Notes under the pieces: generated by a model
What the model was told of the DNA's origin: nothing
The model's database searches: none
Seen by the model: only the letters and a program-made list of their open reading frames with translations
In this document: positions 27,001 to 43,114 of the stretch, one piece after another
Numbering within the stretch: position 1 is the first letter of the stretch
Layout of the letters: each line of letters opens with the position of its first letter
DNA from: Alcaligenaceae bacterium
GTDB taxonomy: Bacteria; Pseudomonadota; Gammaproteobacteria; Burkholderiales; Burkholderiaceae_B
Length of the DNA stretch: 48,291 nucleotides
Direction: 5' to 3'
NCBI GenBank assembly: GCA_947378965.1
Contig: CANCMG010000023.1
Location: 1-48,291 of the forward strand
Made by a program: the position numbers and the translations under genes

Positions 27001-30000
27001 TTGCCTTTGAACAGTGACCCTTTCCTAGAAAACCCCTTGCCTAAATCCGTCGCCATCCTAGGTTCTTCTTACCTCTTGCCCTCTACACCTGCGGGCCAAT
27101 TTGGGCGGTATTTGCTCGAGGGTAAGAATCTAATTTCTACCGTACAACAAGACCGCTGGTCACAAGCAGGTTTTGTTCACCCTCAAAAATCTCATCCCGG
27201 TACCGCCTACACCTTTAGCTCTGGCTCGGTCGGCGATGTCAGTCAGTTTGATGCCGCATTTTTTGGGATTTCGCCCAGAGAAGCCGCACAAATTGATCCC
27301 CAGCAAAGAGTGTTGCTAGAGCTTAGTTGGCAGGCCTTTGAAGATGCGGGGCTTAAGCCTTCGTCGATGCGTGGCAGTGCCTGTGGTGTGTATATAGGTA
27401 TAGCGAGTGCTGATTATTCATATCGGCTCGCTGAAGATTTGGCCTCGATCGACTCTGCAGTAGCAACGGGCAATACGGCGAGTATCGCTGCCAACCGTCT
27501 GTCGTACTTCTTTGATTTACGTGGCCCGAGCATGGCGATTGATACGGCCTGCTCGTCGTCTTTAGTGGCGTTTCATCAGGCGTGTCAGGCGATTCGGGCG
27601 GGCGAAATCACGCATGCGCTGACGGGCGGGATTAGTCTGCATTTGCATCCCTATGGCTTTATCATTTTCTCAAAGGCCAGCATGTTGTCGCCCATTGGCA
27701 ACTGCAACGTCTTTGACGAAGCGGGTGAGGGTTATGTAAGGTCTGAAGGTGGTGGGATCTTTGTGCTCAAGGATTACGATTTGGCCGTGGCAGACGGCGA
27801 TCGGATCCTGGCTGTGGTTGCCCAGACTGCTGTCAATACAGATGGTAAAAAAGCTGGCCTAACGATACCCAAGCCTGAAGCGCAGGCTGAATTACTTTCG
27901 TCAGCCTACGCGTCAGCGGGCATCACGCCCGACGAGATTTCTTATATTGAAGCGCATGGCACAGGGACTGCAGTTGGGGATCCGATTGAGACGCTAGCGC
28001 TTGGGATCTCGCTAGGGCAACAACGCCCTGCAGCTCAGCCACTGCCAATTGGTTCAGTCAAAAGTAATCTGGGGCACTTAGAAGCAGCCTCGGGTGTCGC
28101 GGGGTTGGCCAAGGCGCTGTTTGTGATTGAGCAGCGCAAAATCCCGCCAACTATTGGTATCACTACACTCAACCCTCGTATTGATTTCAAAGGTTTAAAC
28201 CTAGAGGTAGTGACACAGACGCGCCTGCTGCCTGACGATAAACCTGTAGTGGTGGGTGTGAACTCATTTGGCTTTGGTGGCGCCAATGCACATGTGATTT
28301 TACGCAGCCCTAAGGTGATGCAAGATATTGAGCGGCGCAAGGTACAGCAGGTCACGCAAAATGGTGTGCGACATGATCTGTCGCATTCTGAAAAAAATGT
28401 AGCTTCGGCGTTTTTGCAAAATAATGCAGCGTGCGAAGACTTAGCGCAAGATGTTGCAAATGCTAAAACATACATCCCCTTTTTGCTCTCAGCTGCAACG
28501 CCTTTGGCCCTGCAGGCTGCAGCTGCACAGCTTTCGCTAGCGCTCACTGAACACGTAAAAAATGGCGTAGTCGAGCCTGATTATTTGTACGAAGCGGCCT
28601 ATCAATTGGCGTTTCGGCGCGAGGCGTTTGAACATCGCGCGGTGGTGTTTGCCTCTATTGCGACGCCTACTAATTACGTTGATGTCGCTGCTCACAGTCA
28701 CTTTGAGCACAGTCTCGTTCAGCACAGTCTCGCTGTTCACAGTCTCGCTGATCACAATCTCGCTAATCACAATATTGAAGCCCTGAGCCAGCAACTTACG
28801 TCCTATGCAGCAGGCGTAGATAACCTTGGGGTAATTGACGGTATCAGCCTGGTGCCCAGCATCATGGCTCACGGCTCGGCTGTTTACGCGCAAGGCCCTG
28901 CTTTCTTTTACTCGGGTAATGGCGCGCAGTGGCTTGGCATGGGTCGCAAGTTGCTCGCCGTTCCCATATTTAAACAAGCGCTTGAAGATATCGATCAAAC
29001 CTTTGTGGGGCTGGCTGGGTTTTCAATTACAGAGCAGTTGCAGGGCTTATTGCCCGAACTCAGTTACGAAAATACCGACATCGCACAGCCTGCTTTGTTT
29101 GCGCTACAGGTTGGTGTCACCAAGCTGCTGGCTGCGATGGGTGTCAGGCCGCAAGCAGTCGCCGGGCATAGCGTTGGTGAGGTTGCTGCAGCTTGGGCCG
29201 CAGGCATACTCGATTTGAAGTCTACCGTTCAAGTGATTTACCACCGCAGTCGTTTACAGCAAACAACCAAAGGGCGTGGCAACATGACTGCCGTTGCCGT
29301 GGGCGTAGATACCGCGACGCGCTGGCTTGCCGAAGAAGGTTTGTCGGCTACTGTCTTTATCGCCGGCGTTAACAGCTTTTGCGGCGTCACGCTTGCCGGC
29401 ACGGCTAAAGCCCTGACTGCTTTTGAAGCACGCCTCACGCAAGAACGGGTCGGCTTCAAAAGGCTTGAGCTAGATTACGCCTTTCATAGCCCGGTCATGG
29501 ACGGCATCCAAAGTGAACTTGAACAAGCCCTAAGTCACCTGGCCCCAACCGCAGGCGCAATCCCTTTTTACTCTGCAGTAACGGGCGCTTTACTTGATGG
29601 CACTGCCCTCACCGCGGATTACTGGTGGCAAAACATCCGGCAGCCTGTGCTGTTTGAACGTGCGGCACAGCAAGTGTTACGGGCAGGGCATGAAGTTTTA
29701 GTTGAGATCGGACCACACCCTGTACTGAGGGGCTATTTGAACGATTGCGTTAAGCAGCAAGAACAGCACGCCAAGCAATCACAACAAACTAACGCCACAA
29801 CTCGATCAGCCCTTGTATTACCGTCGCTGAGTCGTCAACAGGATGACAGCGAAGCTGTGCAGGCGATCGCTGCGCGCACGTGGATCGCGGGTGCTGAGCT
29901 TGATCTGTCGGTGTTGTTTCCGGTGGTGGGTCACCCAATCGCGCTACCGTCATACCCTTGGCAAAAAGAGCGTCACTGGCATAGCGTAAGTGCAGAGTCA

Positions 30001-33000
30001 CCCAATACCTTAAATCGGGTCTTTGAGCATCCGTTACTGGGCTATCGCTTGCCGCAGCACGAGCTGCTTTGGGAAAACCAGCTTGACCTTTACCGCCAAC
30101 CTTTTTTGGCTGACCACGTGGTGGGCGAGGCGGTGGTGTTTCCGGGTACGGGCTATGTTGAACTTGCTTTGGCTGCGGCACACGCGTGGCACGCTGAGGG
30201 CGTCAAGCAACTTGAAGATTTAGAGATTTTGTCGCCCATCACGTTTAACTCTAGTCACGGCAAGGTGCTGCGCGTGGGGATCGATGCTGCCGACGGCCGA
30301 GTCACGATTCAAACACGCGACTTGCTAAGCGCGCAGGGCTGGACGTTAAATGCGCGGGCCCGAATTATTTTAGAAGCGCGGTTTCCGTTGCTGGTCAAAG
30401 AGAGCAGACTAGTGGTAGAAAACGACTTACAGCTTCAGTCACTAAAGCAGTTAGCGCTGCGTAGCCCAGATTTTGACGCAGCTTCGCATCTGCGACTGAC
30501 GCGCCAGGTAGGCTTGCAATACGGCAAGGCGTTTCAGGCGCTTAAGCACGGTTGGTTAGGTAAAACTTCAACGGCAAGCGGCGCTGACACTGAGTGCGCC
30601 ACGGCGCTTTTTGAGATCCCTGAATCTCTGCTTGACTCACTTGAGCGTTTTAAGCTGCACCCTGCTCTGCTTGACTGTTCGTTGCAACTGATTATTCAGT
30701 TGCTGCGCGATAAGGTTGATTTAAGTGAGGGGATTGCTTTTGTACCCATTCAGGTCAGGCGAATCTCATTACAGCCAGGGTTAGGCGCCCCGCATCATGT
30801 CACCGCCCACTTACTGCGCAAACTGACGCACTCGCTTCTGGCAGAATTTACAGTATTCGATGCTGAAGGTCGTGCGATCGCGCGGCTTGAAGGGGCGCGC
30901 TTTAGGCGCGTACGCCTGCAAAAGGCTGCGGTGAGCGGTATCGCAAGCGGTCATGATCTTACGACTGGCACCGCACGCGGCTCACCTCTTGTAAACACAA
31001 GCGCAATCCAACATATTCACACGCGCTATATCCCCCTGCCCTTGCAACCGGGCATGCACCCTTCTGTCGTCAGTTATCAACTGATGCTCGAGGCTGCCAA
31101 TGCTGCGGCACGTCGCAACGTGCTCGATCGCAATTACCGCACATATGTGGACGAGCTTGATCCCCTACTTGATACGCTGTGCAACACCTTTGCGGTTGAA
31201 GCCTTAGCCAAATTAGGCTTCAACGAAATCATCGATCACAACAATACCCTTCTGCAAAATTTAATTCAGCAATCACCAGACACTGCCCCACTGCTGCAAC
31301 ACCTGCTTCACCTGGCGGTTGAAGAAGGCAGGCTCATTGAAGATGCTGAAGGCGTAAGATTCTTTCAAACTGAACTCGATCCGCAGGGTCAGTCAAACGC
31401 CGATAAGATTGACGCCTTAAATATCTGGAATACGCTGCTGGCAGACTACCCAGACTATTTTGCTGTCGTGCATACGGTCGGCAAAGTTGGTCAGCATTTG
31501 TCTCGGCTTGTCAGGGGTGAACAATCGCTGACTCAGGTGCTAGGGGCAGCAAACGGTGTCGCTGCGCTCACAGACGAATTAGTGGGTCATGCGGTCAAAG
31601 CCAGGCTGCTTGAAGCGGTAAAAGGGGTGCTCAACGCGGCACGTCAACAGCTTACGCCTGCGGGCCGTCTTGGCTTTCTTGAGGTTGCGGCGATAAAACC
31701 TGCACTCGCCTGCGAACTCGATTTGCACGAAGACATCAACCAAAGTGAGGTAATTTTTGCCTGCCCTGAACTGTCAGAGCTTGCCACAAGGCATCAGCTC
31801 GTTGAGGATTTTCCCAGGTTACGTTTGGCTGGCTTTGCCGAACGAGCCGAGGGTGCTGAAGCAGCTTCTCAACAAGCCTCTGGGACAGAGTATCGCGTTG
31901 ATCTGGCGATTGTCTGGCTGCAGTTCGACACCGCAGCGCTGAATACTCTGGCACTCGATTATGCCCTCAGGCACTTAAAGCCTGGTGGCACTTTACTCGT
32001 GGCGGGGCAGCACCGCACGCGTTGGTTAGACTTTACCTTTGGTGGTCGGGCTGACTGGTGGCTAGTGAACGCCGACCAAAAAACAATCTCGATGCAGCGT
32101 GACCGCTCGCTCTGGGAGTCACGCTTGGCAAGCCTTGGGCTTGAACATATTCAGCATATAGACACCACCCAAGAGGCAGCAGACGGCGCATTTTTGTTAG
32201 TTGCACACCACCCGCTTTCGGCAACCACTCAAGCCCACCGACACGAGTTGCCGCGTAGCTGGTTACTGGTTGCTGACGACGCGGCTTTACACCAACCACT
32301 GCGTGATGCGCTCTGCGCGGGCTTGCAAGGCCAGGGCGATATTGTGTCGGTCTGTATTCAAACCGAAACGTCTGACGAAATTGACTACATCGCCGAGCAC
32401 TTGAACGCCATGCATGCTGACTTCGGTGAACTCGACGGGATCATTCATCTGAAGGGCCTTGGGGCCGCCTACCAAGCCAGCACACCCGCAAGTGGGGTTA
32501 GCCGCTCTATCAGCGCTGCAAATTTGCTTAAAGCTTGCCAACGCACGAACACGCGTGCACCTGTATGGTTTATCACTCAAGGGGCGCATACTGAAAGCAC
32601 CTGTGGCTCGCAAGTTCAACGCCAAGCCTTTGGTCAAGTCACAGACTCTGCACAAAAAAACGCTGAACGCCTCGCAGACATCACACTAAGCGCTGACGTC
32701 ATGCTAAGTGGTTTTATCCGTACGCTAGGTAATGAAGTCACCACAAACCGCGTGCAACAGCTTGATTTAAACGCCACCGACATTGATCAAGATTTAGTTG
32801 AAGCCTTAATCAACGAACTCGCGCTTGGCAGTGACGAAACCGAAGTCGTCTTAACCAAAGAACACGGCCGCTTTGTACCGCGCCTGACACTTGGTCACCC
32901 CCAGGTATTGTCTGACGGCCTTGAAGTGGACGCTCAAGACCAGACGCTACAGCTTAACTTTAGCCAACCGGGTCAACTGCGTAATCTGCAATGGCAATGG

Positions 33001-35325
33001 GTGAAGCGGCCGACGTTGGGTGCCGACGAGGTTGAAATCAAAGTCGAGGCCACTGGCCTGAATTTTAGGGATGTGATGTATGCCTTGGGATTGCTGTCTG
33101 ATGAAGCGATCGAAAATGGCTTTGCCGGGGCAACCATCGGCCTAGAGTGCTCAGGAGAAATTCTTCACGTAGGCAAAAACGTGACCCAATTTGCGGTGGG
33201 CGACCGTGTGGTGGGGTTTGGCCCCGCTTGTTTTGCCGAACACGTGGTCACAAAAGCCGCAGCGATTTCTCATATCCCACGCGCGCTGTCTTCAGAGGCT
33301 GCGGCGACTATTCCCAGTACCTTTTTAACCAGTTATTACGCGTTGGTGCATTTAGGGCGGCTCGAGCCCGGTGAAAAAATCCTGATTCATGGTGGCGCCG
33401 GTGGTGTGGGCCTTGCTGCAATTCAAATCGCACGTTGCTGCGGTGCCGAGATTTTTGCCACCGCCGGCTCAGACGAAAAACGCGAACTGTTGCGCATGAT
33501 GGGGGTAGATCATGTGTTGGATTCGCGCTCGTTGGGTTTTGCCGAAGACATTATGACCCTCACAAATGGGGTCGGCATCGACATGGTGTTGAATTCGCTG
33601 GCCGGTGAGGCGATCAACCGTAATCTCAGCATTCTTAAACCTTTTGGCCGTTTCTTAGAGCTAGGCAAACGTGACTTTTATGACAACACGCGCATCGGCT
33701 TACGCCCCTTCAGAAACAACATCACCTACTTTGGCATCGATGCCGATCAGTTGATGAATGAGCGACCCGAGTTGACGGCTAAGTTGTTTGGTGAGGTGAT
33801 GGACTTGTTTGAAAAAGGGGTGTTACACGCCCTGCCCTACACACGTTTTGAGGCAAGAGAGGTCGTTGAGGCGTTTCGTTTTATGCAGCAATCTCAACAA
33901 ATTGGCAAAATTGTTGTGACCTATCGCAATGGGATCCCAGCCGGTCACGCGCGAGTTGCTGAACTGACTCAACCGCGACTCAACGAGACACCTGAGTGTG
34001 CATCCGCAAGACTCGCAGCAGCGGCTCTGCAAACGCCTACGCTTCAAGCAACAAGCTTCAAGCTTGATCCGCAGGCGATCTATTTAGTCACCGGTGGGCT
34101 GGGTGGTTTTGGTTTAAGAAGCGCACTTTGGCTGGCAGAGAAAGGTGCGCGACAGCTACTTTTGCTGGGTCGTCGCGGGCCAGACACGGCCGAAGCACGC
34201 GAGGGCCTTGAAACGCTAGCCAAGCTGGGGGTCACAGTCTGCGCCCATGCGTGCGACATTACCGATGAAGCGGCGCTGTCTGCGGTTCTTGGGCCAAGCT
34301 TGCCTCAGTTAAAAGGGGTGATCCATGCTGCCGCAGTCATCGAAGACAGCCTGATCGAGAATCTATCGCCCGAGCAATTTGCACGCGTCCTGAGCCCAAA
34401 GCTCACGGGCGCGCTGAACTTGCATCGTCTCACGCAACAGCAACCACTCGACTTTTTTGTGCTGTATTCCTCAGCCACCACTCTTTTTGGTAACCCGGGC
34501 CAGGCGGCCTATATCGCTGTCAACTGCGGTCTTGAAGCACTGGCGCTGCAGCGACGCGCTCAGGGGCTTACGGCCACTTGTATGCTGTGGGGTGCGCTGG
34601 ATGATACGGGTTTTCTGGCGCGTCACAAGCAAGTTAAAGAGGCGCTGCAGCACCGCATGGGTGGGCGGGCGCTATCGTCTGCTCAGGCGCTTGAGCGACT
34701 TGAACAAGCTCTGAGTCATAACCACAATCACGAAGGCGTTCTAGAGCTAGATTTTTCGGCGTTAGCCAAGTTTTTGCCAACGGCACAAACACCCAGGTTC
34801 AGTGAGCTGGCGCGGCTTGGTACCCAGCGCGAGCAAAACGAGCAAAAAACTGACGATATCCCGCGACTGCTTCAAGAGCTTGATGATACAGCGCTCGCAG
34901 TTGTCTTCATGGCGATGGTAAAGCAAGAGCTATCTCAGATTTTGCGCCTCGCACCCGACAAAATTCAGACGACTCAATCAATCTATGACATAGGGCTGGA
35001 TTCGTTGATGGGTGTCGAACTCGTCGTGGCACTTGAAGCGCGCTTTGGGGTGCGTCTGTCTGTGATGGCGATCTCTGAACACCCCACGATTGAGAAACTG
35101 ACGCAACGTTTGCTTGGCACCTTGCGCGCCCAGGCAAACCAGCCTGAACCGACTGACCAAGCGCTTGCGCCTGGTTCTTTAAGCACTGCCAAGGCAAACA
35201 GCTACGCAGCCCAGGTGGCTGACTTAGTCAAGATACATGGTTCTGACTCAAGCGAGCAAGAGATTGCCGCACTGGCAGAAAGTCTTGGCGCGCAAACGCA
35301 TCAAGCCGGAAGATTTTTACAATGA
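27001..35325 (+). CDS. wcbR: FAS-like type I polyketide synthase for capsule lipid (RkpA/WcbR-like)
   Basis: 2774-residue iterative, fully reducing synthase. Domains: KS 1-430 (C184 in DTACSSS, H319 in EAHGTGT, H359 in KSNLGHLE); AT about 630-930 (S724 in GHSVGE); DH about 1005-1310 (H1039 in DHVVGEAVVFPG, D1225 in HPALLDC); a methyltransferase-like region about 1340-1720 whose SAM loop is lost (LGFLEVAAIKPAL near 1556); ER about 1980-2300 (HGGAGGVGLAAIQ near 2131); KR about 2360-2540 (VTGGLGGFG, Y2504 and N2508 in AAYIAVN); ACP with S2668 in GLDSLMG. There is no thioesterase, so release probably depends on the next gene's enzyme. In-frame TGA at 26998 forces the start to TTG 27001 (GAGG 10 nt upstream). 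Family role: acyl chain for a capsule lipid, as proposed for S. meliloti rkpA and B. pseudomallei wcbR; symbol given by analogy. Confidence 0.92.
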   Translation: MPLNSDPFLENPLPKSVAILGSSYLLPSTPAGQFGRYLLEGKNLISTVQQDRWSQAGFVHPQKSHPGTAYTFSSGSVGDVSQFDAAFFGISPREAAQIDPQQRVLLELSWQAFEDAGLKPSSMRGSACGVYIGIASADYSYRLAEDLASIDSAVATGNTASIAANRLSYFFDLRGPSMAIDTACSSSLVAFHQACQAIRAGEITHALTGGISLHLHPYGFIIFSKASMLSPIGNCNVFDEAGEGYVRSEGGGIFVLKDYDLAVADGDRILAVVAQTAVNTDGKKAGLTIPKPEAQAELLSSAYASAGITPDEISYIEAHGTGTAVGDPIETLALGISLGQQRPAAQPLPIGSVKSNLGHLEAASGVAGLAKALFVIEQRKIPPTIGITTLNPRIDFKGLNLEVVTQTRLLPDDKPVVVGVNSFGFGGANAHVILRSPKVMQDIERRKVQQVTQNGVRHDLSHSEKNVASAFLQNNAACEDLAQDVANAKTYIPFLLSAATPLALQAAAAQLSLALTEHVKNGVVEPDYLYEAAYQLAFRREAFEHRAVVFASIATPTNYVDVAAHSHFEHSLVQHSLAVHSLADHNLANHNIEALSQQLTSYAAGVDNLGVIDGISLVPSIMAHGSAVYAQGPAFFYSGNGAQWLGMGRKLLAVPIFKQALEDIDQTFVGLAGFSITEQLQGLLPELSYENTDIAQPALFALQVGVTKLLAAMGVRPQAVAGHSVGEVAAAWAAGILDLKSTVQVIYHRSRLQQTTKGRGNMTAVAVGVDTATRWLAEEGLSATVFIAGVNSFCGVTLAGTAKALTAFEARLTQERVGFKRLELDYAFHSPVMDGIQSELEQALSHLAPTAGAIPFYSAVTGALLDGTALTADYWWQNIRQPVLFERAAQQVLRAGHEVLVEIGPHPVLRGYLNDCVKQQEQHAKQSQQTNATTRSALVLPSLSRQQDDSEAVQAIAARTWIAGAELDLSVLFPVVGHPIALPSYPWQKERHWHSVSAESPNTLNRVFEHPLLGYRLPQHELLWENQLDLYRQPFLADHVVGEAVVFPGTGYVELALAAAHAWHAEGVKQLEDLEILSPITFNSSHGKVLRVGIDAADGRVTIQTRDLLSAQGWTLNARARIILEARFPLLVKESRLVVENDLQLQSLKQLALRSPDFDAASHLRLTRQVGLQYGKAFQALKHGWLGKTSTASGADTECATALFEIPESLLDSLERFKLHPALLDCSLQLIIQLLRDKVDLSEGIAFVPIQVRRISLQPGLGAPHHVTAHLLRKLTHSLLAEFTVFDAEGRAIARLEGARFRRVRLQKAAVSGIASGHDLTTGTARGSPLVNTSAIQHIHTRYIPLPLQPGMHPSVVSYQLMLEAANAAARRNVLDRNYRTYVDELDPLLDTLCNTFAVEALAKLGFNEIIDHNNTLLQNLIQQSPDTAPLLQHLLHLAVEEGRLIEDAEGVRFFQTELDPQGQSNADKIDALNIWNTLLADYPDYFAVVHTVGKVGQHLSRLVRGEQSLTQVLGAANGVAALTDELVGHAVKARLLEAVKGVLNAARQQLTPAGRLGFLEVAAIKPALACELDLHEDINQSEVIFACPELSELATRHQLVEDFPRLRLAGFAERAEGAEAASQQASGTEYRVDLAIVWLQFDTAALNTLALDYALRHLKPGGTLLVAGQHRTRWLDFTFGGRADWWLVNADQKTISMQRDRSLWESRLASLGLEHIQHIDTTQEAADGAFLLVAHHPLSATTQAHRHELPRSWLLVADDAALHQPLRDALCAGLQGQGDIVSVCIQTETSDEIDYIAEHLNAMHADFGELDGIIHLKGLGAAYQASTPASGVSRSISAANLLKACQRTNTRAPVWFITQGAHTESTCGSQVQRQAFGQVTDSAQKNAERLADITLSADVMLSGFIRTLGNEVTTNRVQQLDLNATDIDQDLVEALINELALGSDETEVVLTKEHGRFVPRLTLGHPQVLSDGLEVDAQDQTLQLNFSQPGQLRNLQWQWVKRPTLGADEVEIKVEATGLNFRDVMYALGLLSDEAIENGFAGATIGLECSGEILHVGKNVTQFAVGDRVVGFGPACFAEHVVTKAAAISHIPRALSSEAAATIPSTFLTSYYALVHLGRLEPGEKILIHGGAGGVGLAAIQIARCCGAEIFATAGSDEKRELLRMMGVDHVLDSRSLGFAEDIMTLTNGVGIDMVLNSLAGEAINRNLSILKPFGRFLELGKRDFYDNTRIGLRPFRNNITYFGIDADQLMNERPELTAKLFGEVMDLFEKGVLHALPYTRFEAREVVEAFRFMQQSQQIGKIVVTYRNGIPAGHARVAELTQPRLNETPECASARLAAAALQTPTLQATSFKLDPQAIYLVTGGLGGFGLRSALWLAEKGARQLLLLGRRGPDTAEAREGLETLAKLGVTVCAHACDITDEAALSAVLGPSLPQLKGVIHAAAVIEDSLIENLSPEQFARVLSPKLTGALNLHRLTQQQPLDFFVLYSSATTLFGNPGQAAYIAVNCGLEALALQRRAQGLTATCMLWGALDDTGFLARHKQVKEALQHRMGGRALSSAQALERLEQALSHNHNHEGVLELDFSALAKFLPTAQTPRFSELARLGTQREQNEQKTDDIPRLLQELDDTALAVVFMAMVKQELSQILRLAPDKIQTTQSIYDIGLDSLMGVELVVALEARFGVRLSVMAISEHPTIEKLTQRLLGTLRAQANQPEPTDQALAPGSLSTAKANSYAAQVADLVKIHGSDSSEQEIAALAESLGAQTHQAGRFLQ
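28693..28782 (+). repeat. 15-bp minisatellite, six units, inside the PKS gene
   Basis: CACAGTCTCGCTGTT-type units start at 28693, 28708, 28723, 28738, 28753 and 28768. In frame they encode the pentads HSHFE, HSLVQ, HSLAV, HSLAD, HNLAN and HNIEA in the KS-AT linker, near residues 565-594. Confidence 0.9.
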
Positions 35326-36761
35326 GCGTCTTGAAAGTGGGGCTCATGGGTGTAAGCGCTCAAATTAAAGATAAGCTGATTCAACAGTCGCTTGAACGAC
35401 GGCTTAAACAAGCCGGACTCGAGCAGGCCTCTCACGCTCAAGCGCCCGCCACTGCCTTCACCGACCAAGGGCTAACGACTCAAGGCGCTGCCCAACAGCC
35501 GCCACGCACCGCGGTTACGAACGCAAGGGGTGAGCGCGATCGCGCGGTTGCAATCTCAGAAGAGTTTTATCGGTTTGACCGGATGCCTGGTTACAAGCAA
35601 ATCCAGATTATTCATAGCGGTGCAAAAAGAATGGGACTAATGAATCCCTTTTTTAAGCAGCACGAGGGGCTGGCGAGTGCGCATACTCAGATTGCAGGCC
35701 AAGACCTGATTAATTTTTCAAGCTACAACTATCTGAATTTTTCGGGTGATCCACGCATCAACGCGGCTGCCGTCGCTGCCATCGAACAATACGGCACGTC
35801 GGTCTCGGCCAGCCGGCTGGTGTCGGGCGAAAGACCGATTCATCGCGAACTCGAAACTACTCTAGCAACACTCTATGGGGCTGAAGATGCAATCGTCTTT
35901 GTCAGTGGACACGCCACCAATGTCACAACCATCGGGTATCTGTTTGGGCCGCGTGATCTGGTGGTGCACGACGAATTCATCCATAACAGTGCGCTTGAGG
36001 GCATCAAGTTATCGGGTGCTAAACGGTTTTCGTTTCCGCATAATGACTGGCAGGCTTTAGATCATTTGTTAACACAGCATCGCGCTCATTATGAAAGAGT
36101 GCTGGTGGTGGTCGAAGGCATCTACAGCATGGATGGCGATTATCCCGACCTGCCTAAGTTCGTCGAGCTGCGCAATCGCCATAAAGTGTTTTTGATGGTC
36201 GATGAGGCGCATTCGCTAGGTGTCATGGGCGCGCGCGGCCACGGGATTCGTGAGCATTTTGGTCTGCAAGCTGGGGATGTCGATCTTTGGATGGGCACAC
36301 TCAGCAAGAGCCTGGCGGGTTGCGGTGGCTACATTGCGGGCGAAGCCGCCTTAATCGAACACTTAAAGTTTTTAGCACCAGGCTTTTTGTATAGCGTGGG
36401 GATGTCGCCGCCTTTGGCTGCGGCTTCGCTGGCTGCCTTGCAGTGTCTGACGATTGAGCAGCCTCGGGTCGAAAGTTTACAAAAACGCGGAAAGTATTTT
36501 TTACAACTCGCACAGGCTGCGGGCATCAACACCGGCACCAGTACCGGCCTGGCAGTGGTGCCGGCCATTATTGGTAGCTCAATCCGGGCGACCAGGCTCT
36601 CGAGCGCCATGCTTGCCAGAGGGGTCAATGTGCAACCAATCCTGTACCCTGCAGTGCCAGAAAAATCTGCACGTTTGAGGTTTTTTATGTCTTGCCAACA
36701 TACCGAACAAGAAATCGAGTACGCGGTGTCGGCGCTGGCAGAAGAAATCAAAAACTTGTAG
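35322..36761 (+). CDS. wcbT: Alpha-oxoamine synthase (AONS/KBL-like PLP enzyme), RkpG/WcbT-like
   Basis: 479-residue PLP-dependent enzyme that condenses an acyl thioester with an amino acid, losing CO2. The start overlaps the synthase stop as ATGA, which couples translation. Motifs: FVSGHATN, MVDEAHSLGVMGARGHGI and TLSKSLAGCGGYIAG with the PLP lysine at K329. The N-terminal about 90 residues are an extension rich in Q and A that BioF and Kbl lack. Position after the ACP of an enzyme with no thioesterase suggests that it takes the acyl chain from the ACP and makes an amino-ketone lipid, like serine palmitoyltransferase. This is not a biotin gene by context. The symbol follows the Burkholderia locus by analogy and is uncertain. 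Confidence 0.85.
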   Translation: MSVLKVGLMGVSAQIKDKLIQQSLERRLKQAGLEQASHAQAPATAFTDQGLTTQGAAQQPPRTAVTNARGERDRAVAISEEFYRFDRMPGYKQIQIIHSGAKRMGLMNPFFKQHEGLASAHTQIAGQDLINFSSYNYLNFSGDPRINAAAVAAIEQYGTSVSASRLVSGERPIHRELETTLATLYGAEDAIVFVSGHATNVTTIGYLFGPRDLVVHDEFIHNSALEGIKLSGAKRFSFPHNDWQALDHLLTQHRAHYERVLVVVEGIYSMDGDYPDLPKFVELRNRHKVFLMVDEAHSLGVMGARGHGIREHFGLQAGDVDLWMGTLSKSLAGCGGYIAGEAALIEHLKFLAPGFLYSVGMSPPLAAASLAALQCLTIEQPRVESLQKRGKYFLQLAQAAGINTGTSTGLAVVPAIIGSSIRATRLSSAMLARGVNVQPILYPAVPEKSARLRFFMSCQHTEQEIEYAVSALAEEIKNL

Positions 36762-36826
36762 CCCGCTAAGCGACAAAACGGCCGCCCACCCAAGTGTTTT
36801 GGCTGACGGACAAGCCGTTTTGGTTT

Positions 36827-37008
36827 GAATATCTTTTTTTAATCTGAATGTATCTTTTTGTCAGAACGTATTTTTTTGGTGTGAATGTATTTTTTTAGTT
36901 TGAATCTCCTTTTTTAGTTTGAACATGTTTTTTCTTTGAACGTGTTTTTTCTTTTAACGTGTTTTTTGATTTGAGCGTGTATTTTTTGCTTTAAACGTAT
37001 TTTTTATG
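36827..37008 (+). repeat. About ten T-tract repeats (16-21 bp period) upstream of kpsD
   Basis: Units like TTTGAACGTGTTTTTT recur, with T5-T7 tracts at about 36834, 36855, 36871, 36890, 36910, 36928, 36945, 36962, 36982 and 37000. The array ends just before the start of the outer-membrane exporter gene. Phased T-tracts of about two helical turns can bend DNA; on RNA they would be U-tracts. Confidence 0.85.
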
Positions 37009-37019
37009 AGCATGACATT

Positions 37020-38234
37020 GTGACTTCACTTATTTTGCGCCGCACCAGCAACGGTATCAGCCGCCGTGTCATAAAAGCGCTGGCGCCACTATCGCTGGTG
37101 TTGCTTTCCGGTTGCGCCAGCAACTGGTTACCAACCTCAGGGCCAAGCGTCAAAGGCTTAGAAGCTGCCGTTGCCACAACGCCAGACGCCTCTTTGATTG
37201 AACTCATTGATATCAATTCAAGCGTCACACGCAGGTTGGCTGATAACGAAAAAAAGCAGTATTTTTCAAACGGCTTTTCAGCCAGCCTGGATGCCACCTA
37301 TGTGGTTAATCCCGGTGATGTGATCGAAATCAGTGTCTGGGAGGCCAGCCCTGCACTGTTATTTGGTACAGCACCCTCGTTTGCGGGTTTAAGTGCGGTG
37401 TCAGGTGGTACTAAAAATACGAGCCTGCCAGAGCAAATGATTGCCAAAGATGGCTACATTACGATGCCGTTTGCTGGCCGGATCAAAGTCGCTGGCAAAA
37501 CCCTTGCCACGATCGAAGCCGAGATTGTTGACGCGCTAAGAGGCAAAGCAAATTACCCACAGGTGATCGCGCGCTTAACCAGAAACTCAACCACAAATGT
37601 CACGGTGGTGGGTGAGGTCAGCAAAAGTATTGTGCTGCCGCTAACACCGCGTGGCGAACGCTTGCTAGATGCTATTGCCGAAGCGGGTGGCGTGAAACAA
37701 CCCATCGAAAAAACCACGGTACAGCTATCGCGCAATTCAGTGGTCAGAACCATGCCACTCGAAAAAATCATCCAAGATCCCAAACAAAACATTCGTCTGA
37801 GCCCAGGTGATGTGATTACAACGTTTTTTCAGCCGTATAGTTTTACTGCCCTGGGTGCCACCGGCAAAAACGACGAAATCAATTTCGTCGCACAAGGGAT
37901 TTCTTTGACGCAGGCGATCGCCAGAGTGGGTGGGGTGCAAGATCAGCGTGCTGACGTCAAAGGGGTGTTTATTTTTAGGTTTGAAGAGCCTGGAGCCTTA
38001 ACGCTTGCGCAAGCCCCAAAAGCAACAAATGAAGACGGCAAAATCCCTGTTGTCTATCGACTAGATCTGAGTGACCCCAGTGCTTTTTTTGTAGCGCAAA
38101 ATTTCAAAGTCAAAGACAAAGATGTTCTTTACGTGGCCAATGCGTCGTCGGTTGAGTTCAATAAATTCTTGAACATCCTGGTGTCGGTCATCTACCCCTT
38201 GGTCAATGCTGGCACGATCGCCAAAACTTACTAA
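37020..38234 (+). CDS. kpsD: Capsule export outer-membrane lipoprotein (Wza/KpsD/WcbC family)
   Basis: 404-residue polysaccharide export protein forming the outer-membrane channel. Start GTG 37020; nearby ATGs at 37006 and 37012 are out of frame and hit the TGA at 37021. A lipoprotein signal ends in the lipobox LLSGC with C32. The poly_export domain (ATYVVNPGDVIEISVWEA, then ITMPFAGRIKVAGKTL) and SLBB-like beta-grasp regions (VTVVGEVSKSIVLPL, LTQAIARVGG) follow. The lipid anchor and size are closer to Wza/WcbC/CtrA than to the longer E. coli KpsD. It functions with the KpsE/M/T system encoded 26 kb upstream. Confidence 0.92.
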   Translation: MTSLILRRTSNGISRRVIKALAPLSLVLLSGCASNWLPTSGPSVKGLEAAVATTPDASLIELIDINSSVTRRLADNEKKQYFSNGFSASLDATYVVNPGDVIEISVWEASPALLFGTAPSFAGLSAVSGGTKNTSLPEQMIAKDGYITMPFAGRIKVAGKTLATIEAEIVDALRGKANYPQVIARLTRNSTTNVTVVGEVSKSIVLPLTPRGERLLDAIAEAGGVKQPIEKTTVQLSRNSVVRTMPLEKIIQDPKQNIRLSPGDVITTFFQPYSFTALGATGKNDEINFVAQGISLTQAIARVGGVQDQRADVKGVFIFRFEEPGALTLAQAPKATNEDGKIPVVYRLDLSDPSAFFVAQNFKVKDKDVLYVANASSVEFNKFLNILVSVIYPLVNAGTIAKTY

Positions 38235-38263
38235 GTTAGTGTGCTAGCCGCCGAAGGGTCGTC

Positions 38264-38428
38264 AGGCAGCAGGCTACCCAGCTTAACGTTATTGAGCGGT
38301 CGTAATGAAACAGACCACGCAGCTTAACGTTATTGAGCAGTCGTGATGCAGCAGACCCTGCAGCTTAATTTTATTGAGCAGTCGTGATGCAGCAGACCAT
38401 GCAGCTTAACTTTATTGAGCGGTCGTGA
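38264..38428 (+). repeat. 41-bp tandem repeat, four copies, ending in the kpsS start codon
   Basis: Units begin at 38264 (degenerate), 38305, 38346 and 38387, with an exact 41-bp period. The consensus is ATGCAGCAGACC, CAGCTTAACTTTATTGAG and CRGTCGTG. The array occupies most of the gap between the kpsD and kpsS genes. Confidence 0.93.
38305..38428 (+). other. Chain of three overlapping 13-codon micro-ORFs leading into kpsS
   Basis: Micro-ORFs 38305-38346, 38346-38387 and 38387-38428 encode MKQTTQLNVIEQS, MQQTLQLNFIEQS and MQQTMQLNFIERS. Each stop shares one base with the next start (TGATG). The last stop overlaps the kpsS start as GTGA. A fourth, earlier copy (38264) has AGG in place of ATG and joins by TAATG. 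Whether any is translated is unknown. Confidence 0.4.
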
Positions 38429-39690
38429 AGCGCCATTTTCTTTTTTTGCAGGGCGTCAGCTCACCATTTTTTAAGCAGTTAGCCAGGCGCTTGCAGGCAG
38501 ACGGGCATCGCGTCACAAAAATCAGTTTCAACATGGGGGATGTTGCGTATTGGGCGCCCGCCCGGTCGATCTGGTTTAATCAGACGACGTCAGAGCTGGG
38601 GGGGTTTCTAGAGCAACTTTACCGGCGTGAGGGCATCACCGACCAAGTGCTGTTTGGTGACCGGCGCTCCGTGCATCGTCAGGCCGTGCAACAGGCCCGC
38701 GAGCAAGGCCTCCGTAATCATGTCTTTGAAGAGGGGTATTTTCGGCCGCACTGGGTGACGCTTGAGCGCGAGGGTGTCAACAGCCGCTCGCCATTACCCA
38801 GCGAGCCAGACTGGCTTCGCGCGGCAGCCCAGCAACTCAGGGCGAGCGGCGTGAGCCCGCCAGTCAGCAACACCTTTGACTCACCCTTCTGGCGTCGCGC
38901 GGCTCATGACGTGGCCTATCACTTGGCCTCTGGGCTCAACCCTTTGGTGTTTTCTAAATACCGTACCCATTCTTCGGTACTGGCCCCGGTTGAGTACGCA
39001 GGATTTGTGAGGCGTCACCTTAAAAATAAATTTCGTCTTCAGCCAGAACGCTTGCGGCTTGAGGGGCTTTTGCGTGCCGCAGGGGACTTTTATTTTTTAC
39101 CTTTACAGCTTGATAGTGATTTTCAAGTGCGGGATCAGCCGGTCTTGAACACCATGCGCGCCTTGCTTGATCATGTAATCGGCTCATTTGCCCGGCACGC
39201 TCCTACTCATACGCGTTTAGTCATCAAAAATCATCCGCTTGATTTTGCTCAAACCAACTATCACTCGCTCAGCGCTTTGCTTGCTCAGCAGTATGGTGTG
39301 CCAGAGCGCGTTGAGTATTTTGAGACGGGTGATCTCGCTGCCTTATTGAAAAACGCCTTAGGCACCATTACCCTGAATAGTACGGTTGGCACGTTGGCCC
39401 TAGAACAGGGTTGCCCGACGCTCTGTTTGGCACCGGCCTTGTACAACGTTAAGGGGTTAACAGCACAGTGTGGGCTAGACGATTTCTGGGATAGCCTGCC
39501 TCAGCCAGATCCAGAGTTATTTTCGCTTTTTAAAACTGTGGTGATGCACACGACACAAGTGAACGGTGGTTTTTATTGCCCCCAAGGTATTGAACTTGCC
39601 GCGCGGGCCAGCGCCACGCGCCTCGCTGCCGAGGCATCCCCGCTAGAGTGCTTGCAGCAACAGCTTTCATCAGGCTCTCGTGCTCACTGA
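38425..39690 (+). CDS. kpsS: KpsS-type capsule Kdo transferase
   Basis: 421 residues from GTG 38425, which gives MKRHFLFLQGVSSPFFKQLA, the standard KpsS opening. Known role of the family: adds the first beta-Kdo of the linker to the lyso-phosphatidylglycerol acceptor at the inner membrane face. VFEEGYFRPHWVTLEREGVN, VIKNHPLDF and TLNSTVGTLALEQGCPTLCL are typical capsule_synth (PF05159) motifs. Its start codon lies in the last copy of the 41-bp repeat. It overlaps the following membrane enzyme by 11 nt. Confidence 0.92.
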   Translation: MKRHFLFLQGVSSPFFKQLARRLQADGHRVTKISFNMGDVAYWAPARSIWFNQTTSELGGFLEQLYRREGITDQVLFGDRRSVHRQAVQQAREQGLRNHVFEEGYFRPHWVTLEREGVNSRSPLPSEPDWLRAAAQQLRASGVSPPVSNTFDSPFWRRAAHDVAYHLASGLNPLVFSKYRTHSSVLAPVEYAGFVRRHLKNKFRLQPERLRLEGLLRAAGDFYFLPLQLDSDFQVRDQPVLNTMRALLDHVIGSFARHAPTHTRLVIKNHPLDFAQTNYHSLSALLAQQYGVPERVEYFETGDLAALLKNALGTITLNSTVGTLALEQGCPTLCLAPALYNVKGLTAQCGLDDFWDSLPQPDPELFSLFKTVVMHTTQVNGGFYCPQGIELAARASATRLAAEASPLECLQQQLSSGSRAH

Positions 39691-41260
39691 CGTGCTCATC
39701 GCGCTGCTGACTCCAGCCTTGAGCGGATTGGCGTTTTCTTTTGTACTCGAGCAAGTGCACACACCACGGCCGCGGCTGCCATGGCAGCGTGACCCTGCTG
39801 ATCTGCTGCTTCACAGTGGGTTATGGCTTGTGCTGTATTTGCTTGAGTTGGTTCAGTTTGGCAGGCCGTGGCTGGCCATGGGCCTAACCTGCAGTATTTT
39901 TTATGTGCTGCTCTTGGTCAATCGGGCAAAGTTTGACGCGTTGCAAGAGCCCTTTCTTTACCAAGACTTTGAGTATTTTGTCGCTGCGCTTAAGCACCCC
40001 AGGCTATATCTGCCTTTTTTTGGTTTTTTCAAAATCATTGGATGCCTGAGTACGGTGGGCTTGGCTCTATGGCTTGGCATCACACTTGAAAGCGCACTTG
40101 CGCGATCGTTTGCGCATGAGCAGATTTGGCAAGCAGGCTTAGTTATTTTATTGCTTGCAGCGGCGATGCTCTATGCCGCGCAAGGCCACCACCCACTGTT
40201 AAGTTTTAAGCCAAACGCTGATTTTAAACAGCGGGGTTTATTGGCGCTGTTTTGGCACTATGCCTGGGCAGAGCGCCACAAGCCAGTGTTGGCCGACCTT
40301 AGCACGCACTCAACACTAGGTCGTGTGTCGTTAGCTAGCGCTGAGCAAAACTTGTATGACACGGTTGTCGTACAAAGCGAATCCTTTTTTGATCCAAGGC
40401 GAGCGTTTGGCCTGATCAAGCCCGGCATTTTGTCTGAGTTTGACCGCGCCTGCCGTGCGTCGGTATGTTTTGGCCCCTTGGCCGTCACAGCGTGGGGCGC
40501 CAATACCGTTCGAACAGAGTTTTCTTTTTTAACCGGCATCGACCCAAGCTTGTTAGGGATTGACCAATTCAATCCGTACCGCCGTGTGGTGTCGGCTTGG
40601 TTGCCGTCGCTTGCGCGTGAGTTTAAAAAAAAAGGTTACCGAACGGTTTGCCTGCATCCGTATCCAGCAAGCTTTTATCAGCGCGATAAAATTTTTAGCT
40701 TACTTGGTTTTGATGAATTTATTGACCTCAAGAGCTTTACCCAACCCGAGCAACAACAAGGCCCGGGCCCTTACGTGAGCGATCAAGTGCTCACAGAGAA
40801 AATTCTTGACATGTTCGCTCAGCCACGGCAACAGCCGCTCTTTCTCTTTGCCATCACCATGGAAAATCACGGCCCTCTTCACCTTGAGCACCTGGCAAAG
40901 TCAGAAGAGCAACAATGGCTAAACGAGCCCTTACCAAAAAACTGTCAAGAGCTTTCAATTTATCTGAGGCATTTAGCCAATGCAGATCAAATGATCTCGA
41001 AGTTGCTGCAACGCTTTTCTGCGGCCCCGTCGAGCGCGCGACCAATCCAGTTACTCTGGTACGGCGATCATGTACCTGTGTTGGCCAAGGTGTATGCACA
41101 ACTTGGATTGCCTGACGGGCATACCGAATATTTTTTATGGCGTTCGGATGAGTGCAGGCGCTTGGCTGCTGTCAGGTCAAGTGTTGACACGGTGACGCGA
41201 CAGACGCCAGCGCCACAACCCTTGGGTGTGCACCAACTCGCCGCTGAGTTGTTGAGGTGA
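39680..41260 (+). CDS. LTA-synthase/sulfatase-family membrane enzyme
   Basis: 526 residues. Five hydrophobic helices lie in the first about 170 residues, followed by an extracytoplasmic alkaline-phosphatase-like domain. Visible motifs: DTVVVQSESFFDPR (E234 region), AWGANTVRTEFSFLTGID with the likely nucleophile threonine, MENHGPL, and LLWYGDHVPVL near 460. The family contains phosphoglycerol and phosphoethanolamine transferases (LtaS, OpgB). Its place between kpsS and glycosyltransferases suggests it decorates or builds a phosphodiester part of the capsule. GTG 39680 overlaps kpsS; GTG 39692 is an alternative start. Confidence 0.82.
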   Translation: MLTDVLIALLTPALSGLAFSFVLEQVHTPRPRLPWQRDPADLLLHSGLWLVLYLLELVQFGRPWLAMGLTCSIFYVLLLVNRAKFDALQEPFLYQDFEYFVAALKHPRLYLPFFGFFKIIGCLSTVGLALWLGITLESALARSFAHEQIWQAGLVILLLAAAMLYAAQGHHPLLSFKPNADFKQRGLLALFWHYAWAERHKPVLADLSTHSTLGRVSLASAEQNLYDTVVVQSESFFDPRRAFGLIKPGILSEFDRACRASVCFGPLAVTAWGANTVRTEFSFLTGIDPSLLGIDQFNPYRRVVSAWLPSLAREFKKKGYRTVCLHPYPASFYQRDKIFSLLGFDEFIDLKSFTQPEQQQGPGPYVSDQVLTEKILDMFAQPRQQPLFLFAITMENHGPLHLEHLAKSEEQQWLNEPLPKNCQELSIYLRHLANADQMISKLLQRFSAAPSSARPIQLLWYGDHVPVLAKVYAQLGLPDGHTEYFLWRSDECRRLAAVRSSVDTVTRQTPAPQPLGVHQLAAELLR

Positions 41261-41409
41261 TGCGGCGCCAGGGCCAGCGTTGGCTGTCGATACTGTACGC
41301 GCGTCAGGGGATTGTACGCAAAGCGTCGAGCGTGACATTGAACAAAAATAACAACAAAGTCTTGAGATCTTTAGCCCTTGTCGCACTCTAAAAAGCAACT
41401 TTGTATACG

Positions 41410-43017
41410 ATGAACGTTGATCTCGCTCAACTCGTTCTGACGCTGCGCCCTGATTTGCAAAAGCTCTTTGCAACAGCAACAAAGCGGGGGTCAGAGGCTT
41501 TCAATGCCTGGCTGATAACCTCTGGCAAAAAAGAGTATCGCGCTGTCAGTGAAGACACAGGTTTTTTGCAAACTCTAGTAACGCCTCAACGCAATACTGC
41601 TGCGCCGCTCACGCGTGTGCAAAAGCTCATTCTTATCGCGCGCCCGGATGTGCAAGAGGCCTTTGCGCTGCGTGGTGGTGTGCAAGCGTTCAAAGAGTGG
41701 TTTTATACCTACGGCCTTGAAGAGCATGATTACTGGGATTTTTTGACCTCAACAGAAAAAAACCTGGTGCTTGCGCTGCCCGACCCTTGGGCAACGCGCC
41801 TCAAGCCCCTGACGCAACGAGTCTTACCGCGCCCCCTGCCCCGCCTAGCTTTTAAGAAACGAAGCTACGGGGTAAATTTAATTGGCTATGCCTTTGGTCG
41901 TTTGGGTATCGGCGAAGATTTGCGCATGGCAGGCAAGGCTTTATTGAAGGCCAAGGTGCCGATGACGATGCTTGATTTTCCGCCAGGTGACAATATCGAC
42001 ACCAACGAACGGAGTATGGCTCGCTATGTGTCAAAGGTTGGTGATTTCGCGTTTAATATTTTTTGCCTCACGGCTGAAGAGACAGGTCGCTTTTATGCCG
42101 AGCGCGGTAAAAGTCAATTTGTCGATCGCTACAACATAGGGTATTGGCCCTGGGAGCTCGGCGCTTGGCCCAAAGAGTGGAAACTCATGCTCGAGCTTGT
42201 GGACGAGGTCTGGGTATCGACGCAGCACACGTTTGCTTCGCTCAAGTCAGTCTGCAAAAAGCCCTTAAAGCTTATGCCAATGGCCGTAGAGCTTGGCCCT
42301 GTTCAAACATTCAAAGCAGCCAACGAGGCCAGAAAGACCTTCAAGCTCAACACCCATGCCACTCTGTTTTGTTTTGCGTTTGATTTAAATTCGTACATCG
42401 AACGAAAAAACCCCATGGCTTGCGTACAGGCCTTTTTAAAAGCGTTTCCGAAGACCGACTACACCGCCAAGCAGGTTGGCTTGGTGGTCAAGGTGCAAAA
42501 GCCACGTTCGGATAACGCCGCCTGGCTAGAGTTAAAGACGATCGCCCGAAACGACCGGCGTATTACTATCATTGAACAAACACTCGAACGGCCAGCTTTG
42601 CTGGCGCTGTACCGAGCCTGCGATTGTTATCTGTCTCTGCATCGTGCCGAGGGTTTTGGTAGGGGGATGGCAGAGGCGCTGCAACTTGGTTTGCACGTGA
42701 TCTGTACAGGGTACTCAGGCAACGTCGATTTTTGCCAGCCACCACATGCAGATTTAGTGAAATATCGTTTGACGCGTGTCAAAGCAGGCCAATACCCACG
42801 TGCCAGTGGTCAGGTCTGGGCTGAGCCTAATGTTAGCCACGCTGGGCAGTTAATGCGAGAGTTTTACGAAAACACTGAGGCGGTGGTTGAGCCGTTGGAT
42901 GCCAGTATCTTTGCGCCTGCAGTAGTGGGTGAGCGCTACAAAAACCGTTTAAACGAAATCTGGGCCAAACGAAATGCCACCCAGGAAGCTAAAAAAATTC
43001 ACTTAAGCTTTAAGTAA
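41410..43017 (+). CDS. GT4 glycosyltransferase with duplicated N-terminal helical module
   Basis: 535 residues from ATG 41410; a TTG at 41401 is less likely. The first about 125 residues hold two related modules (TLRPDLQKLFATATKRGSEA, then IARPDVQEAFALRGGVQAF), each ending in a W and an acidic G-x-x-E-H/Y. The GT4 part begins at NLIGYAFGRLGIGEDLRMAG. YNIGYWPWELGAWP lies in the middle, and the E-x7-E donor site is HRAEGFGRGMAE (E414 and E422). It probably adds a capsule sugar at the cytoplasmic face. The 150 bp before it show no clear promoter. Confidence 0.88.
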   Translation: MNVDLAQLVLTLRPDLQKLFATATKRGSEAFNAWLITSGKKEYRAVSEDTGFLQTLVTPQRNTAAPLTRVQKLILIARPDVQEAFALRGGVQAFKEWFYTYGLEEHDYWDFLTSTEKNLVLALPDPWATRLKPLTQRVLPRPLPRLAFKKRSYGVNLIGYAFGRLGIGEDLRMAGKALLKAKVPMTMLDFPPGDNIDTNERSMARYVSKVGDFAFNIFCLTAEETGRFYAERGKSQFVDRYNIGYWPWELGAWPKEWKLMLELVDEVWVSTQHTFASLKSVCKKPLKLMPMAVELGPVQTFKAANEARKTFKLNTHATLFCFAFDLNSYIERKNPMACVQAFLKAFPKTDYTAKQVGLVVKVQKPRSDNAAWLELKTIARNDRRITIIEQTLERPALLALYRACDCYLSLHRAEGFGRGMAEALQLGLHVICTGYSGNVDFCQPPHADLVKYRLTRVKAGQYPRASGQVWAEPNVSHAGQLMREFYENTEAVVEPLDASIFAPAVVGERYKNRLNEIWAKRNATQEAKKIHLSFK

Positions 43018-43042
43018 AAAAACTTAAGCTTTAAGTAAAAAA
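43001..43042 (+). repeat. 21-bp duplication over the stop codon of the GT4 gene
   Basis: ACTTAAGCTTTAAGTAAAAAA occurs twice in tandem (43001 and 43022); the first copy contains the TAA stop. Each unit can fold into CTTAA-GCT-TTAAG. Confidence 0.8.
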
Positions 43043-43114
43043 ATTCATGTTCACTGGCCTTAACTCTCTGGGCATCCTCCATCGTTCTGCGCTACCCAGC
43101 AAGGCTTATCCAAT

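Follow-up and report, generated by a model that had tools for sequence, protein, structure and literature searches.

The array of 41-bp repeats located between an outer-membrane polysaccharide exporter gene and a kpsS-like capsule polysaccharide gene of a Zwartia-like bacterium arose, with a probability that we put at roughly 0.7, when the translation-initiation region of the kpsS-like gene itself was duplicated in tandem. It is one of many intergenic tandem duplications of unrelated sequences in this genome, and the relay of overlapping micro-ORFs formed by the repeats would be its unselected geometric by-product. The unit carries GTGA(TG) at the start codon, and at a length of 41 bp (i.e., 3n+2), the frame of each copy closes on the start of the next copy unless an in-frame stop intervenes. 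From such a start and such a length, a relay follows geometrically and would thus be a by-product and not a selected device. We expect no more than a single ordinary coupled step, in which ribosomes that began at the last micro-ORF would stop at GTGA and reinitiate at kpsS as a modest supplement to the weak de novo initiation of this gene, with the farther copies giving ever less. We infer this translation of the micro-ORFs, as well as its possible effect on kpsS, from the sequence. An earlier note on this DNA regarded the repeats either as a stop-restart relay that tunes kpsS translation by repeat number or as a duplicated ribosome-binding region, and it is the latter that fits better.

Organization of the locus and of the repeat array

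The window, i.e., the whole analysed stretch of 48,291 bases, corresponds to contig 23 of a draft genome that comprises 4.50 Mb and 189 contigs. The product of the exporter gene (Table 1) scored above the cut-offs for PF02563 (65.6 bits) and PF22461 (71.8 bits) and below the cut-off of 333 for NCBIfam NF011658 (134.9 bits); the name kpsD for this gene is that of the earlier note. Its stop is separated by 190 nt from the start of the KpsS-like gene, the product of which gave 227 bits with PF05159 (cut-off 20) and 235 bits, below the cut-off of 600, with NF050054 KpsS. An in-frame TGA is present three codons upstream of the GTG at 38425 with no start codon in between, which leaves no other start ahead of the conserved N-terminus; the start is fixed also by the alignment of the protein from residue 1 with a relative of 73% identity. 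The adjacency of the exporter and kpsS genes was not found in the three congeners that have both of them, where the two lie 14–20 kb apart on the same contig.

Table 1. Features of the exporter–kpsS-like region (positions in the window)
Feature	Position	Strand	Basis or remark
Exporter gene (Poly_export + SLBB; outer-membrane polysaccharide exporter)	37020..38234	+	ORF call, PF02563, PF22461
Copy 1 of the 41-bp unit, outermost	38258..38298	+	AGG at 38264; SD-like stretch for micro-ORF 1
Copy 2 of the 41-bp unit	38299..38339	+	Repeat finder and copy alignment
Copy 3 of the 41-bp unit	38340..38380	+	Repeat finder and copy alignment
Copy 4 of the 41-bp unit	38381..38421	+	3' half is the probable kpsS ribosome-binding region and resembles the leader of two congeners
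Micro-ORF 1, MKQTTQLNVIEQS (putative)	38305..38346	+	TGA overlaps the next ATG as TGATG
Micro-ORF 2, MQQTLQLNFIEQS (putative)	38346..38387	+	TGATG overlap; alternative GTG start at 38343
Micro-ORF 3, MQQTMQLNFIERS (putative)	38387..38428	+	TGA overlaps the kpsS-like GTG as GTGA; alternative GTG start at 38384
KpsS-like capsule polysaccharide protein, 421 aa, GTG start	38425..39690	+	PF05159

Four 41-bp repeats between both genes, as reported in the earlier note, were recovered at 38258-38421, with 31–38 of 41 positions identical between pairs of copies. Tandem Repeats Finder delimited the array at 38258-38428 (period 41, 4.2 copies, score 230), which indicates that it is not a product of chance; the 41 bases directly 5' of it match the copies at 9–11 of 41 positions, and the 41 bases directly 3' at 13–16 of 41. 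With its head-to-tail, imperfect copies of a unit within the range of about 10–100 bp (period 41, 4.2 copies), the array is similar to bacterial VNTR or minisatellite loci, also in its presence in one lineage only.

Three open frames of 13 codons joined by TGATG are indeed present in copies 2–4, with the overlaps at 38344-38348 and 38385-38389, and the stop of the last one overlaps the kpsS GTG as GTGA (38425-38428), in agreement with the earlier description. The remaining copy, thought to be disabled, does have AGG in place of ATG at 38264; it proved to be the outermost one, and it still provides the SD-like stretch of micro-ORF 1. The frame of this copy closes with TAA, overlapping the following ATG as TAATG. 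Copies 3 and 4 each have an in-frame GTG immediately 5' of the ATG, and their micro-ORFs could thus also begin at the codon that corresponds exactly to the kpsS GTG. Stop/start overlaps of 1 nt and of 4 nt, which are the geometry of coupled gene pairs, both occur in the array. The predicted micropeptides lack the run of one regulatory amino acid that characterizes leader-peptide attenuators, as their longest residue run is of two (TT in the first micropeptide, QQ in the second and third). A terminator-like match lies inside the array (38347-38362); it is one of six in the region, vs. 4.2 in shuffled sequences.

Three other features of the window were observed. About ten T-rich repeats of 17–20 bp (TTTGAACGTRTTTTTT-like) are located just 5' of the exporter gene, at 36818-37005. 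A 21-bp sequence, the core of which is palindromic (ACTTAAGCTTTAAGT), is perfectly duplicated at 43001-43043, across the end of the ORF 41401-43017. An ORF of 2774 aa (27001-35325) is followed directly by a BioF/serine-palmitoyltransferase-like gene (35322-36761).

Origin of the unit and its possible coupling to kpsS

The last 60 nt preceding the kpsS-like gene were compared with sequences of three relatives. A match of CAG-TTAACTTT-TTGA was found in genome G031 (locus L034), the KpsS of which is 73% identical (P 0.0125), and a match of ACTTGATTGAGCG in genome G026 (locus L005), the KpsS of which is 58% identical (P 0.0025); there was no similarity in the case of Zwartia hollandica (locus L035, P 0.92), the cultured congener among the relatives compared. 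With the whole 190-nt leader as a query, the P values for L034, L005, and L035 were 0.21, 0.069, and 0.94, respectively. The correction for six comparisons (three relatives, two queries) brings the two low values obtained with the shorter query to about 0.075 and 0.015, and the leader similarity is short. Both congener matches lie within the 3' half of the copy nearest to kpsS, the place expected for a native ribosome-binding region. We take this position as modest support for an origin of the 41-bp unit in the native initiation region of kpsS.

The array has no second match in its own genome at E<=0.001, and its best match in 31 other genomes of the genus is of 29 bases (E 0.011). A dispersed repeat or a mobile element was rejected as its source on the basis of this lack of a second genomic match and of the only short, weak matches in the 31 congeners. 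A plasmid search with the region 38140-38600 gave no match, and no exact match to the unit pattern was found among viral contigs. The nearest kpsS gene, which encodes the 73% identical protein, is not preceded by an array, and the copy number of the unit is known from one genome of the species.

The SD-like GAG/GGU stretch that precedes the kpsS start lies inside the 3' end of the last micro-ORF and, at -1.9 kcal/mol, is weak; among 714 long ORFs, each considered from its longest ATG start, 72% carry a stronger SD. Equally weak SD-like sites belong to micro-ORFs 2 and 3. According to the accessible text of PMC10666635, translational coupling is efficient at a 4- or 1-nt overlap and nearly gone at a distance of about 20 nt, and synthetic-operon studies cited there saw coupling across longer gaps. 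Leader ORFs with an internal SD and an adjoining stop can raise expression in laboratory constructs, as stated in the available parts of PMC13255528 and PMC5995908. With coupling nearly lost already at some 20 nt, direct coupling of kpsS to the exporter stop over 190 nt is hardly to be expected. This distance, taken together with the weak kpsS SD and the GTGA overlap, makes a single coupled step reasonable, and it is plausible that ribosomes would pass from the last micro-ORF through GTGA to kpsS.

The position of KpsS-like genes in other genomes is relevant here. In 36 of 42 homologous loci, many of which are from Salinicola or Halomonas and hence are non-independent, an ORF of at least 60 aa ends ahead of the KpsS-like gene, with its stop within 35 nt of the match start; the six exceptions include L034 and L005. 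This count omits L003, L004, L006–L010, L013, and L014, the first eight of which are, by their length, the same contigs as L034–L040 and L070.

The possible contribution of the outer copies was considered with a saturation model, in which k is the initiation rate of each copy and p the fraction that it passes on, so that the output equals k(1+p+p2+p3). This sum levels off quickly, and the copy number would therefore tune little.

Tandem arrays and micro-ORF chains in the genome

Significant differences between this genome and its congeners concern the number of tandem arrays. The first sample of the genome (1,239,467 bases in 61 stretches, comprising the window, L073–L092, and L097–L136) contained 123 arrays with a period of at least 15, of which 82 lie mostly outside ORFs of at least 100 aa (6.6 per 100 kb), and the second sample (L177–L216; 758,669 bases in 40 stretches) contained 43 intergenic arrays (5.7 per 100 kb). 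In 800,000 bases of 13 congeners, five intergenic arrays were found (one in G005, two in G031, and two in G002), which corresponds to 0.6 per 100 kb. Thus, intergenic tandem arrays of unrelated units are in roughly tenfold excess over the 13 congeners (two-sided P 8e-13 for the first sample vs. congeners). The G+C content of the sampled sequences is 52% in this genome and 48.5–62.1% in the congener stretches.

The periods of intergenic arrays are unbiased with respect to the reading frame, with remainders of 1, 2, and 0 upon division by 3 in 30, 28, and 24 arrays of the first sample and in 13, 16, and 14 of the second. The period of coding arrays is a multiple of 3 in 31 of 41 cases (first sample) and 17 of 23 (second sample), as selection for the frame predicts. 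An excess of 3n+2 periods among intergenic arrays with a period of at least 30 (23 of 50, one-sided P 0.042) did not recur in the second sample (7 of 20, P 0.52) and was rejected (combined 30 of 70, P 0.061). Arrays positioned between -30 and +25 nt relative to an ORF stop were more numerous than expected in the first sample, for which a null was computed (35 of 82, null 15.6, 95% range 9–22), and amounted to 16 of 43 in the second. An enrichment near starts was considered and dropped (22 of 82 vs. a null mean of 16.9, 95% range 9–25, in the first sample; 6 of 43 in the second). The same concerns a shared 6-mer that would drive array formation, as the top 6-mer, at about fivefold, occurs in 7 of 82 units and is unconvincing, and the loss of mutS or recJ as a cause of the burst, as both of these genes, the two repair genes searched for, are present and score above the cut-off.

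To assess the micro-ORF relay itself, chains were defined as at least three overlapping micro-ORFs (8–30 codons, ATG or GTG start) leading into the first, second, or third candidate start of an ORF of at least 150 aa, and three first-order resamplings of the upstream regions served as the null. Such chains precede 6 of 972 genes in the first sample (5, 5, and 4 of 972 in the shuffled sets) and 1 of 565 in the second (1, 1, and 4 of 565 when shuffled), as well as 1 of 650 genes in 40 stretches of the 13 congeners. The single case of the second sample, found on the minus strand of L182 (start 15175), is a chain of three overlapping micro-ORFs into a 669-aa ORF and contains no tandem repeat, its units being identical at only 11 and 6 of 35 positions. 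It is a chance relay, and it indicates that chains of this kind arise without duplication. The 669-aa ORF presumably encodes DnaX.

Relay-like array-strands are likewise not enriched among the 82 intergenic arrays. With ATG, GTG, and TTG starts, there are 13 of them (from 11 of the 82 arrays) vs. a shuffled-unit mean of 15.05 and a maximum of 23; with ATG and GTG there are 7 vs. 10.6, and with ATG alone 4 vs. 6.5. In these controls, the units were repeated without mismatches after shuffling, and this somewhat raises the expected count and so leans against a relay. A random unit bounded by GTGA yields a relay with a frequency of 0.20 for lengths of 20–60 and of 0.55 for the length of 41. Differences among copies 2–4 comprise 2 synonymous and 9 non-synonymous changes in the micro-ORF frame (a synonymous fraction of 0.21 is obtained for random changes) and 3 and 10, and 3 and 9, respectively, in the two other frames, and hence give no sign of selection on the micro-ORF peptides. 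The three internal frames stayed intact under neutral change in 22% of simulations, a result that speaks neither for nor against the by-product reading. The overlapping arrangement is thus no commoner than chance and shows no sign of being kept by selection, and the frequency of chains in shuffled controls, the lack of a synonymous bias, and the neutral survival of the frames indicate together that a relay needs no selection.

A second tandem-repeat relay was found on contig 13 (L085:12949-13090). It is a complete, three-step ATGA relay of 16-codon frames with a 47-bp unit, bridging a HAD-type phosphatase gene, which ends with ATGA, and a transaldolase-like gene opened by the last ATGA. Anatomically, this putative relay is cleaner than that of kpsS. 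The case alone leaves the chain statistics unmoved; it counts against the by-product reading, as a selected role retains some plausibility with two tandem-repeat relays that run into genes.

Alternative explanations and relation to known systems

A functional stop-restart relay, in which the outer copies would load ribosomes and pass them via the three micro-ORFs to kpsS and in which the repeat number would set the output, is unlikely, although the anatomy of the array is right for it, with three open frames, TGATG and GTGA overlaps, and an SD-like stretch in each micro-ORF. The overlaps of -1 and -4 nt are those which published coupling needs (PMC10666635, available text), the kpsS SD is weaker than that of most long ORFs, and the location of the KpsS-like gene just after an ORF stop in the majority of the non-independent homologous loci may suggest that coupling is its natural state. 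However, the frequency of chains equals that of the shuffled control, relay arrays are not enriched, the 3n+2 excess is not repeatable, and the peptides are not conserved, so the proposal of the earlier note that the relay tunes kpsS by repeat number finds no support. Moreover, micro-ORFs 2 and 3 have SD-like sites no stronger than that of kpsS, and the gain per copy would saturate geometrically. The duplication of a ribosome-binding region, mentioned in the same note as the simpler option, is supported by the modest, half-unit likeness to the leaders of two congeners and by the many unrelated arrays. A broader version of the relay, in which 3n+2 duplications falling on start codons during a burst of intergenic duplication would become coupled micro-ORF chains, with at least two genes (the kpsS-like one and the transaldolase-like one at L085:13090) fed by copy-number-variable relays that would preserve translational coupling over an enlarged gap, seems to us quite unlikely.

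It is very unlikely that the array acts as a tandem RNA element, in which a hairpin of each copy (GCUUAA/UUGAGC arms) would hide the SD-like stretch and regulate initiation. Every copy is predicted to fold into the same stem of six pairs (seven in copy 3) with two outer pairs, at -4.8 to -6.0 kcal/mol, and the differences between copies are mostly outside the stem (8 of 14 columns vs. 4 of 27, Fisher P 0.0097). However, this clustering has a P of 0.12 once the choice of the region is allowed for, and the argument from a conserved half of the unit, for a ribosome-binding site as well as for a hairpin, was dropped for this reason. Additionally, the arms are invariant, and so there is no covariation, and the whole leader folds no better than its shuffles (z -0.12), which led to the rejection of the leader as a structured RNA. 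An array of DNA-binding sites or a kpsS promoter inside the leader is hardly probable. Near-identical blocks repeated 5' of a gene, and the presence of the second, T-rich array 5' of the exporter gene (36818-37005), would be in line with binding sites, but an AACGTT dyad occurs in just 2 of the 4 copies, and the array is without a second genomic match. The search for an independent promoter inside the array, limited to the sigma-70 type by consensus, revealed none, with 0 sites in the region 36700-39800 vs. 1.9 in shuffles.

The preferred reading, i.e., the duplication of an initiation region with a relay as its by-product, can be related to several known systems. In overlapping gene pairs with termination-reinitiation (ATGA or TGATG; PMC6728339 and PMC10666635), the two commonest geometries given in the accessible text of PMC10666635, TGATG (-1) and GTGA (-4), are also those of the array. 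However, the partners in the known coupled pairs are real genes, whereas those in the array are 13-codon repeat frames without a sign of peptide selection and with a putative coupling. Bicistronic design (BCD) leaders and upstream nonsense ORFs, as described in the parts of PMC5995908 and PMC13255528 available, resemble the array in having a short frame with the SD of the target (in the array, a weak SD-like stretch) in its 3' end and a stop that overlaps or adjoins the target start. Unlike BCD leaders, the array is natural, threefold repeated, and has a weak SD and a putative effect.

A likeness of another kind concerns a genome of the Beggiatoaceae, where, as in this genome, many intergenic tandem arrays occur. 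In the portion of PMC4679880 available, arrays of the TAACTGA heptamer are described as located mostly just 5' of starts, over the ribosome-binding site, and a translational role is proposed for them. In contrast to those arrays, which share one 7-nt unit, each array of this genome has its own unit, and the 41-bp one carries a start codon; moreover, the heptamer arrays lie mostly at starts in that genome (PMC4679880), and those found here are not significantly enriched there. Among the matches listed in a search of titles and abstract openings of the open-access literature, there was no paper on tandem micro-ORF relays before a gene.

Results of our analysis indicate that simple tandem duplication, when it involves a start codon, easily gives rise to a designed-looking micro-ORF relay, and the controls applied here separate the two. 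The kpsS locus alone is ordinary, and the burst of arrays in the genome is the more interesting fact and the wider surprise. The genus Zwartia belongs to the freshwater GKS98 cluster (PMC10535154, accessible text), and the tenfold excess of arrays in a freshwater Zwartia-like genome raises a testable question of what drives or tolerates such duplication. The arrays themselves are natural copy-number experiments on ribosome-binding sites.
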